From positions 62,181 through 126,180 of the forward strand of contig NZ_JAFG01000003.1 in NCBI RefSeq assembly GCF_000519305.1: DNA of 64,000 bases, read 5' to 3'. A program made the position numbers and the translations under genes. Positions 44,362-46,854 of the stretch are shown in pieces (within the stretch, counting starts at the first letter, position 1; every line of letters starts with the position of its first letter). The notes below the pieces were generated by a model. It worked only from the letters and a program-made list of their open reading frames with translations. It did no database searches and had not been told where the DNA came from. The stretch is from Mesorhizobium ciceri WSM4083 (GTDB lineage: Bacteria; Pseudomonadota; Alphaproteobacteria; Rhizobiales; Rhizobiaceae).

Positions 44362-45372
44362 ATGCCCTTCAAATCGCTTAGTGAATTGCGCGCCGCCTGC
44401 CTCGACTTGCCGGCCGGCAGCGACGGAGCGGCCAATGCGGTCGCCCGCCGCCAGGACACGCTGACCAAGCCGCAAGGCAGTCTCGGCCGGCTGGAGACCA
44501 TCGCCGCCTGGCTGGCGCGCTGGCAGGGCCGCGACATGCCGAAACTCGACCGCGTAAAAGTCTTCGTCTTCGCCGGCAACCACGGCGTCACCGCGCAAGG
44601 CGTGTCGGCCTATCCCTCGGAAGTCACCGTGCAGATGGTGGCGAACTTCGCCGGCGGCGGCGCCGCCATCAACCAGCTTGCCCGCATGGCCGGCGCCGAA
44701 CTCGACGTCATCCCGCTCGATCTCGACCATCCGACCGGCGACTTCACGCAAGGGCCGGCGATGGACGAAGCGGCCTTTCTGGCGGCGGTCTCGGCCGGCT
44801 ATGATGCGATGACGAAGGATCTCGACCTGATCTGCTTCGGCGAGATGGGCATCGGCAACACCACGCCGGCAGCCGCCATTTCAGCGGCGCTGTTCGGCGG
44901 TGGCGCGGAAAAGTGGACCGGGCGTGGCACCGGTGTCGACGACGTCGGCCTCAAGCGCAAGGTGGTCGCCATCGAAGCCGGCCTGAAGCGCCACGCCGCC
45001 GCCCTTGCCGACCCGCTGGGCATTGCTGCCGCACTCGGTGGCCGCGAGCTCGCCGCCATCTTCGGCGCCACGCTGGCGGCCCGCCATCTGGGCATCCCTG
45101 TGCTGCTCGACGGCTTCGTCTGCACCGCCGCCGCAGCCCCACTGGCAAAGATGCACCCAACCGGCCTCGCCCACACAATCGCCGCTCACGTTTCGGCCGA
45201 ATCGGGCCATCGCGGCCTGCTCGAAGCCCTCGGCCTGCCGCCGCTGCTCGATCTCGGCATGCGGCTCGGCGAAGGCTCCGGCGCCTGCCTGGCCGTCAAC
45301 ATCGTCCGTTCGGCGCTGGAGTGCCATGCCCGCATGGCAAGCTTTGCCGAGGCTGGTGTGTCGGAGAAGTAA
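44362..45372 (+). CDS. cobT: Nicotinate-nucleotide--dimethylbenzimidazole phosphoribosyltransferase
   Basis: A 336-residue enzyme (CobU in Pseudomonas denitrificans naming) that makes alpha-ribazole phosphate. It shows RQDTLTKPQGSLGRLE, FAGNHGVTAQGVSAYPSEVT, EMGIGNTTPAAAISAAL and LLDLGMRLGEGSGA, with the catalytic glutamate in the last motif. It is the last recognisable gene of the cob run. Confidence 0.96.
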   Translation: MPFKSLSELRAACLDLPAGSDGAANAVARRQDTLTKPQGSLGRLETIAAWLARWQGRDMPKLDRVKVFVFAGNHGVTAQGVSAYPSEVTVQMVANFAGGGAAINQLARMAGAELDVIPLDLDHPTGDFTQGPAMDEAAFLAAVSAGYDAMTKDLDLICFGEMGIGNTTPAAAISAALFGGGAEKWTGRGTGVDDVGLKRKVVAIEAGLKRHAAALADPLGIAAALGGRELAAIFGATLAARHLGIPVLLDGFVCTAAAAPLAKMHPTGLAHTIAAHVSAESGHRGLLEALGLPPLLDLGMRLGEGSGACLAVNIVRSALECHARMASFAEAGVSEK

Positions 45373-45512
45373 ATACGAGACTCTACTGCACCGACGGGTG
45401 AGCCGATGAAGGCTCTCCACGAACGCCTTGCCGGGCCGCAACTCTCACGTCGTCTCCTAGATTCGGATGACGGAGAAATCTATAGTGGGGCACAGAGTCG
45501 GAGAGGTATCCC

Positions 45513-46700
45513 TTGGAAAGCGACTTTCAAGTTTTCATAAGCTACGCTAGGCCGGACCGTGAGGCGGCGGGGGAATTATACGATTGGCTTAAGCAAAACG
45601 GCTTTGAAAGCTGGGTTGACTTCAAGAAAATTAAAGGCGGGCAAAATTGGGATTTTGAAATTAAACGCGCTCTGGATAGGTCATCTATCATTGTCATTCT
45701 TTGGTCGAAAAATTCGCGCGACCGTCGAGGCTATATCCAAAGACAGCTGAAGCTGTCTTTGGAAAAATATCAAGAAAAATTGATTGATGATATTTTTATA
45801 ATACCAGTCCTTATTGATGACAGCCCCATTCCTGAACAATTTAAAAGCATTCAAGCTTTATTCACCAGCCAATCTGATTTTAGAGAAGCGTTATCCGATG
45901 CAATATCTCATCAGATCGAGCGGCTGGGCGGCGAGCGTGAGCGCGTGCAGTTGGATCAGAAAATCACCTGGCACTCCTCTTTAATCAAGGAAGAGTGGGA
46001 GGGGACACCGGGTTATGCGGTTGAACTTCAGATATTGGATTTTTCTTCCACAATAATTCCGAACGTAGCTCAGATCGGCCAGCACGTTAGAGGTGCTCTG
46101 ATCGAAAATTTATTTTCTTACCGTCGAAGCAAATTTGAACAAAGATCGGAAACTTATAACTATGCCCAGGACAAATGGTCTCGAACCAGCACATTCGACG
46201 CCCATTGCGGAGACCCTATATTTTGCAATAAAATTGTTACACTTCTATACAATATGAATTGGTATGGTGCCGGGGCAGCGCACCCTACGCACGGCCATAA
46301 GACTTTTGCATTTCTGCTTGAACCACTTATCAGAATCGAATCGCTTGAAAGTGTTTTCGTGACGCCCGATGTTGCGTTTTCAATTTTACAAAAGGAAGTT
46401 CGTCAGCGGTTGGTAAAATACAATCCGTGGGGAGACGAGGAGCCAGACCCCGGCACCGTGATCGGCTTAGAAGAGGAGTGGGTAAACGAAGGAACGGAAA
46501 AATGGTCGGATTTTCGATCGTTCGTTTTCAGCGAAAACAGCCTTGATATCCACTTCTCGTCCTATCAAGTCGCCTATTATGCGGCGGGCACGCCCCACGT
46601 TTCAATCCCGTACCCCTTGGTCGTCAAATTAATGCGGGAAGAGTACATCGTCGCCCTCAATATCAAGAGATACACATATGACCAGCAGCCTGTTGCCTAG
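45513..46700 (+). CDS. TIR domain protein with C-terminal RsiV/PdaC-like (DUF3298-type) domain
   Basis: A 395-residue protein. Residues 1-135 are a TIR_2-type domain (FQVFISYARPDREAAGELYDWL, GFESWVDFKKIKGGQNWDFEI, SIIVILWSKNSRDRRGYIQRQL, FIIPVLIDD). Residues about 150-395 resemble the PdaC/DUF4163 plus DUF3298 unit of the anti-sigma factor RsiV, with NMNWYGAGAAHPTHGHKTFAFLL and SLDIHFSSYQVAYYAAGTPHVSIPYPLV. No signal peptide or membrane helix is visible. The usual glutamate of the GYVQKEL-like motif is Q78 here. Start is TTG 45513 with GGAGAGG six bases upstream. The gene is much more AT-rich than its surroundings and ends 78 bases from tRNA-Lys, suggesting transfer. A defence role is inferred. 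Confidence 0.85.
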   Translation: MESDFQVFISYARPDREAAGELYDWLKQNGFESWVDFKKIKGGQNWDFEIKRALDRSSIIVILWSKNSRDRRGYIQRQLKLSLEKYQEKLIDDIFIIPVLIDDSPIPEQFKSIQALFTSQSDFREALSDAISHQIERLGGERERVQLDQKITWHSSLIKEEWEGTPGYAVELQILDFSSTIIPNVAQIGQHVRGALIENLFSYRRSKFEQRSETYNYAQDKWSRTSTFDAHCGDPIFCNKIVTLLYNMNWYGAGAAHPTHGHKTFAFLLEPLIRIESLESVFVTPDVAFSILQKEVRQRLVKYNPWGDEEPDPGTVIGLEEEWVNEGTEKWSDFRSFVFSENSLDIHFSSYQVAYYAAGTPHVSIPYPLVVKLMREEYIVALNIKRYTYDQQPVA

Positions 46701-46778
46701 GGAGCTGCCTTTTTGCGGATTTGACGCGGGGCTCGTGACCCCGCTTCGCTTGCAACACATTGAAATATCAGCGGAAAA

Positions 46779-46854
<76 letters not shown>

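Follow-up and report, generated by a model that had tools for sequence, protein, structure and literature searches.

The window, the whole stretch of 64,000 nucleotides of Mesorhizobium ciceri WSM4083 that was analysed, carries a gene that fuses a TIR domain to an RsiV-like domain, and this fusion is probably a horizontally spread, single-gene sensor-effector protein that acts against phages in the cytosol. We infer its anti-phage function, ligand-triggered assembly, NADase activity and binding face, which would combine as follows. In the cytoplasm, the RsiV-like domain would recognise a protein that arises in the course of phage infection, probably via its conserved GAGAAH and Y..A..A.G motifs, and this binding would let the TIR domains assemble; the assembled TIR domains would destroy or convert NAD+, and the cell would stop before phage release. 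TIR domains are a common killing part of bacterial immunity. Among the PubMed Central papers searched, we found none joining DUF3298 with TIR; the initial annotation knew of no described system with this architecture. The DUF3298 papers there included work on RsiV and lysozyme and, by title, none on phage defence; DUF4163 with phage returned a proteome paper only, and RsiV with TIR domain returned fish and amphibian papers only, in which RsiV is probably an iridovirus name. Feature coordinates are collected in Table 1.

Table 1. Features of the fusion gene and of the genes that flank it (window positions).
Feature	Position	Strand	Evidence or remark
cobT-like gene, near side of the apparent cargo slot	44362..45372	+	PF02277, E 2.1e-112
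TIR-RsiV-like fusion gene	45513..46700	+	ORF reading; 395 aa, TTG start
TIR_2 (PF13676), residues 7-126	45531..45890	+	Pfam: E 1.4e-21, 77.7 bits, cut-off 28
Codon 78 (CAG, Gln)	45744..45746	+	Glu in 15/15 relatives; aligns with Glu77 of SPARTA TIR chain 8ifk
Long helix joining the two halves, residues 123-149	45879..45959	+	structure model
DUF4163/PdaC-like part of RsiV-like domain, residues 149-287	45957..46373	+	fold, not Pfam
GAGAAH motif, in DUF4163/PdaC-like part	46266-46283	+	
DUF3298 (PF11738), residues 288-367	46374..46613	+	Pfam: E 8.8e-12, 46.2 bits, cut-off 24.1
YQVAYYAAG motif, in DUF3298 domain	46563-46589	+	
tRNA-Lys(CTT), far side of the apparent cargo slot	46779..46854	-	3' end toward fusion gene

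As the initial annotation had proposed, a TIR domain and an RsiV/PdaC-like domain are joined in a single gene: the open reading frame runs exactly from 45513 to 46700, and both TIR_2 and DUF3298 score over their cut-offs. At the matching place, the start codon is TTG in one Mesorhizobium relative (L014) and GTG in another (L015, from M. helmanticense). The gene had also been described as richer in AT than its neighbours, and this was borne out by a GC content of 0.455 against 0.641 in the rest of the window. A single one of 629 equal-length segments was as low in GC, and it begins at 45501, overlying the gene; the lowest value among segments clear of the gene was 0.575. The same bias recurs elsewhere, the fusion gene being lower in GC than its surroundings in all 13 other loci measured. 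The fusion frame is under purifying selection, with a dN/dS of 0.087 against L015 (83% DNA identity) and of 0.122 against L014 (97.6% DNA identity). Because of the low ratio against an orthologue only 83% identical, and because 15 full-length relatives exist, the fusion is not a chance product. Promoter and terminator scans remained near chance (3 found against means of 2.0 and 1.6).

By profile, the closest solved relatives of the TIR half are SPARTA-type TIR proteins (8j8h, 1.2e-10; 8ifk, 3.7e-10), and the top PADLOC match of the window protein is the TIR part of Aga_TIR-PNTD1-PNTD2 (1.8e-14). Weak matches in the TIR region were obtained with ThsB in PADLOC (1.4e-7) and with ThcB4 in NCBIfam (33.8 bits, cut-off 220), and in both collections the best matched stretches fall between residues 3 and 163, in the TIR half plus the linker. 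The protein is like SPARTA TIR-APAZ in that a TIR and a C-terminal partner share one chain, but APAZ stands behind the TIR in SPARTA, whereas the RsiV fold and DUF3298 do so here; SPARTA also has a short Argonaute, and no Argonaute family was found among the eight Pfam-scanned neighbours of the window gene. Its likeness to Thoeris ThsB and to the type III Thoeris TIR lies in the weak TIR-region matches; however, it falls far below the ThcB4 cut-off for the type III protein, and a ThsA-type, SIR2- or other effector-type family was absent among the same eight neighbours, scanned with Pfam only.

We aligned the window protein with 15 full-length relatives, whose sources range from other Mesorhizobium through betaproteobacteria to plasmids and viral contigs. 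Besides L014 and L015, they comprise L004 (Mesorhizobium), L016 (Corticimicrobacter), L017 (Hyphomicrobiales MAG), L018 (Sphingopyxis), L019 (Polaromonas), L020 (Sphingomonas), L022 and L023 (both from the same taxonomic family), the plasmids L067 (Rhizobium) and L068 (Agrobacterium), and the viral contigs L062-L064, with L064 viral by its collection alone. In the tree, L022, L023, L067 and L068 split off as a distant clade (100/100). The TIR-only matches L005-L013, L054, L055, L061, L065 and L066 were left out of the family, L054 and L066 being among those set aside without reading their proteins, and L002 and L003 duplicate the contigs of L014 and L015. One of these TIR-only matches, L065, comes from the edge of a viral contig, and its gene at 22-1077 joins a truncated TIR-like start to what resembles by eye a formylglycine-generating-enzyme-like domain.

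The fusion has a sparse, scattered distribution: 7 loci came out of a pattern scan that covered the genomes of 84,980 species. Within the genus, a full-length relative occurs in 4 of 146 genomes, the window genome counted; in the taxonomic family, 3 of 394 sampled genomes match at E 1e-20 (again with the window genome counted), and in the phylum 3 of 398 sampled genomes match at E 1e-18, two of them in the TIR part only. Since the family and phylum searches scored at most four candidates per genome, this rarity may be overstated. L018 is the sole full-length match among 298 genomes of its own family, and neither the window protein nor that of L062 found a match in 50,697 phage records. Of 144 Mesorhizobium genomes, 4 contain DUF3298 itself, each time at the site of the fusion, and the domain was also detected in two of 14 control genomes (B. 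subtilis and Bacteroides).

The alignment of these 16 proteins revealed a peculiarity of the window copy, in which position 78 is Gln and the other 15 proteins, the distant clade of four among them, have Glu; the codon is CAG in the window gene and GAG in both L014 and L015. Position 78 is a putative catalytic glutamate site, assigned by alignment only, as it falls on Glu77 of 8ifk in the profile alignment. In PMC10474274, E77A is named as the catalytic mutant of a TIR-APAZ/Ago complex, whose chain (8i87/8i88) is another sequence than 8ifk and was matched by profile. With Gln at this position, the window copy may lack NADase activity, and we accordingly consider that it may be enzymatically dead or altered, while the fusion family overall looks active. 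The initial annotation had read the TIR domain as the responding half and missed the Gln at this site. We see an even chance that the window copy is a decayed allele, in which the Glu to Gln change removed the NADase and left a dead, regulatory or decoy version in an otherwise active family. The exclusive Gln, its place on Glu77 and the E77A mutant all speak for decay; against it, the frame is otherwise intact and gives a dN/dS of 0.12 with its nearest relative, the Gln codon could be a sequencing error, and the structure model is poorly defined at residues 76-78 (pLDDT below 50), where the catalytic residue is placed by alignment.

We now turn to the C-terminal half, for which DUF3298 was matched in all 11 copies scanned. 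For DUF4163/PdaC (PF13739), Pfam listed nothing in the window protein up to E 10, with HMMER filters that drop most weak matches; the Agrobacterium relative L068 does pass the PdaC cut-off (32.7 bits against 29.1). In the model of the whole protein (mean pLDDT 76.6, pTM 0.70), Foldseek ranked lysozyme-bound RsiV first (E 3.5e-10), and this match spans both parts of the domain, with model residues 149-384 lying on RsiV 75-285. When modelled alone (residues 149-395), the C-terminal half reached a pLDDT of 83.8 and a pTM of 0.81, and among 1000 chains compared it aligned with RsiV (5jen) at Z 15.8 and rmsd 3.4 over 199 residues. The other top chains in this comparison were 3cyg (Z 17.1), 4e72 (15.5) and 3s5t (14.8), followed by two PgdA entries (Z 9.9 for 2c1i over 162 residues, and 9.6) and MPT64 (6.9); unrelated folds start at Z 4.1. 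PgdA aside, these are relatives named in the accessible part of the RsiV paper, which lists 3CYG, 3S5T, PA4972 and 2HHI (PMC5014341). The expected kinship with RsiV and PdaC was thus recovered by structure comparison (Z 15.8 for RsiV, 9.9 for PgdA), and on the models the initial domain call is right for both parts, for the first by fold only.

Two known protein types frame what this fold may do here. RsiV, the anti-sigma factor and lysozyme receptor of Bacillus subtilis, has the same two-part DUF4163 plus DUF3298 fold, but it sits in the membrane, the domain facing outward and the part that binds the sigma factor lying within the cell (PMC5014341), whereas in the fusion the RsiV-like domain stands behind a TIR, lacks a hydrophobic N-terminus ahead of it and is 13% identical. 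PgdA/PdaC peptidoglycan deacetylases are envelope enzymes. The N-terminal domain of PgdA has the fold of the C-terminal half, but no deacetylase domain was found in the window protein with Pfam. RsiV was matched weakly by sequence (E 0.14 and 0.34), too weakly for its lysozyme contacts to be transferred onto the window protein, and therefore we claim no lysozyme-contact residue in it. In a viral structure library, none of the matches listed is RsiV-like by name, many of them carrying no name, and two reach E 0.001.

What the domain binds is a separate matter. The RsiV-like fold could be a generic protein- or glycan-binding scaffold, with a trigger other than lysozyme, for example a capsid or tail protein, and the arguments for and against such a scaffold leave us evenly divided. 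Capsid or tail-tube proteins trigger some bacterial immune proteins, as reported in PMC9712102, PMC11312562 and PMC11263360, and sequence identity of the C-terminal half to RsiV is only about 12-14%. In addition, the motifs of the fusion family are also present in 3cyg and 3s5t, which the RsiV paper describes as uncharacterised or of unknown function (PMC5014341). Nothing specific speaks against such a scaffold; the sole ligand complex of this fold among the matches is that with lysozyme (5jen).

The location of the protein separates it from ordinary members of the domain family. RsiV binds lysozyme outside the cell, with a Kd of 70 nM, its sensor being beyond the membrane (PMC5014341). In the window protein, no transmembrane segment precedes the sensor domain by simple Kyte-Doolittle hydropathy, the measure used throughout (19-residue mean, maximum -0.26 in the first 45 residues), and the highest value of the chain, 1.29, lies at residue 265 in the sensor half. 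Across the 16 aligned fusion proteins, none has a hydrophobic N-terminus: the maxima over the first 45 residues range from -0.28 to 0.66, and the highest value of any whole chain, 1.42, lies away from the N-terminus. As a comparison, we inspected 19 of 26 non-HNH DUF3298 matches in the taxonomic family of a genome designated G716 (see below); 18 of these ordinary ORFs have a lipoprotein- or signal-like start by eye and score 0.44 to 2.99 on the same first-45-residue measure, and the 19th is a wrong-frame read. The fusion protein is therefore predicted to be cytoplasmic, and a wall-degrading trigger would be met in the cytoplasm. The initial idea of an immune switch is supported in part, for its architecture, its RsiV/PdaC kinship and a defence-like setting, while sensing of a wall-degrading protein by the C-terminal half stays a proposal.

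We also used the C-terminal half as a query against 249 genomes of the phylum, which gave four matching genomes: the window's own, G716 (locus L072), and two with ordinary proteins (L073 and L074) that have signal-like N-termini by eye. In L072, an HNH endonuclease domain (1.2e-9) rather than a TIR precedes DUF3298 (1.3e-8), so that the C-terminal domain looks like an exchangeable sensor; exchange of the effector with retention of the other half is what would be expected if the C-terminal half is the sensor, the swap being seen in one genome (n=1). This HNH fusion adjoins an FRG-domain gene and lies near a DUF4062-TPR gene, a kind of neighbourhood seen in defence islands. A low-GC cluster at L079 3907-8539, beside a rho-like gene (by eye), holds an FRG-domain gene, the HNH-DUF3298 fusion, a 222-aa gene with no match, a gene that resembles an acetyltransferase by eye, and a DUF4062-TPR gene, and looks like a small defence island. 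When searched with the HNH-fusion protein, viral contigs gave 14 pattern matches and no relative, and plasmids gave 16 records, none covering 80% of the query, with all 16 matches within its first 111 residues, on the HNH side.

In the window, as in L014 and L015, the fusion gene sits between the cobT-like gene and tRNA-Lys(CTT), here in the interval 45373-46778. Across Mesorhizobium this interval looks like a variable cargo slot: in 30 loci compared (L024-L053, out of 61 cobT loci), its length varies between 122 bases (L025) and more than 1.4 kb, with differing ORFs, the tRNA is visible within the stretch in 23 of the 30, and a TIR gene occurs in the window locus only. Partial duplications were noted in this region, with a 46-base partial tRNA copy near cobT in L044 and additional copies of the cobT 3' end in G125 and G111. 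A comparison of the interval with the tRNA and 60 bases beyond gave no exact match of 11-20 bases (the longest being 10), so no integrase-style boundary is shown at the fusion gene. Identity to L014 is 97.6% for the gene and 91.4% for the 3' half of cobT, and since the downstream gene is also 96.9% identical, the case for a recent transfer drawn from this comparison is weak. The window gene's own neighbours are housekeeping genes (cobalamin, PhzF-like, transporter) or unmatched, the eight being CobB-, CobS-, CobT-, PhzF-, HlyD-, ABC- and MacB-like by Pfam, with one unmatched.

The setting of the relatives is of another kind. Of 11 homologous loci surveyed (with L022 and L023 left out), 8 lie in stretches that also hold defence or mobile-element genes, as judged from family matches or annotation. 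In the viral contig L062, the fusion gene is directly preceded by a tape-measure gene and two tail genes of phage, and a phage DNA primase gene follows 3.3 kb downstream. The L063 stretch includes a phage head protease together with the ATPase of a PADLOC candidate system (PDC-S06), and that of L020 an MmeI-type IIG restriction enzyme and a gene for a phage head protein. In L019, an HNH gene and PtuA (Septu-like) start 0.2 kb downstream, and in L016 a ThsB-like gene lies at about 7 kb on the upstream side. In L080, a larger stretch around L004, MobA relaxase, AlpA and integrase genes mark an integrative element, with a tRNA-Thr gene adjoining the integrase, and the plasmids L067 and L068 carry, as annotated, DarT, RES/Xre, HEPN, GIY-YIG and recombinase or integrase genes. 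For L017 and L018, there was no PADLOC match in four neighbours each and no mobile or defence gene among the ORFs read. Homologues are thus not confined to housekeeping contexts, and the search for their setting that the initial annotation had called for found mobile or defence genes at 8 of 11 loci, but housekeeping genes around the window copy itself. The link to defence drawn from these neighbourhoods is guilt by association.

Further genes in these stretches deserve mention in their own right. A gene of 249-260 aa with a D...ELK stretch overlaps the end of the fusion gene in L063 (9218-9967) and L064 (5243-6025) and resembles a PD-(D/E)xK nuclease by eye; the L063 copy has no Pfam or PADLOC match, and the L064 copy has no PADLOC match and matches one unnamed PHROG only. 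At L016 193-1511, the ThsB-like TIR gene is followed by a 293-aa gene whose product looks membrane-bound by eye and is unmatched in PADLOC; the pair may form a two-gene system and lies close to genes that, by eye, are of conjugation type.

These data bear on two accounts that do not involve phages. The first is a housekeeping or envelope-stress protein that answers cell-wall fragments or host lysozyme, as the housekeeping neighbours in the window and the envelope location of ordinary DUF3298 proteins (18 of the 19 ORFs inspected by eye) might suggest; we consider it improbable, given the N-terminal hydropathy of the 16 fusions (-0.28 to 0.66, against 0.44 to 2.99 in the 18 ORFs), the rarity of the fusion within the genus (4 of 144 genomes) and the mobile settings of the relatives. 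The second, a TIR effector delivered by a plant symbiont into its eukaryotic host, draws on the host genus being Mesorhizobium and on TIR effectors known in other bacteria, and is very improbable in view of relatives from viral contigs and from the genomes of Polaromonas and Sphingopyxis, and of the lack of a hydrophobic N-terminus.

A cytosolic sensor-effector protein directed against phages thus remains our preferred reading. Phage lysozymes and endolysins build up in the cytoplasm before holins open the membrane. A more specific version, which we put forward tentatively and hold to be rather unlikely, is that the lysozyme-receptor fold of RsiV was relocated to the cytoplasm and joined there to killing domains that can be exchanged (TIR, HNH); its trigger would be phage lysozyme or endolysin accumulating before lysis, cells would die first, and prophages would carry the gene to exclude competitors. 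The sensed trigger is known for few bacterial TIR proteins (PMC11312562). Here, the fold of the sensor half can be recognised, and one complex of this fold with a ligand has been solved, which makes the question of the trigger directly testable. Altogether, with the pairing found in distantly related bacteria as well as in prophages, a lysozyme-receptor fold may serve some bacteria to detect viral proteins inside the cell. If true, a protein that senses lysins would monitor the phage cycle at a late step that is hard to avoid, and the HNH version suggests a reusable sensor module that could be used for finding further systems.
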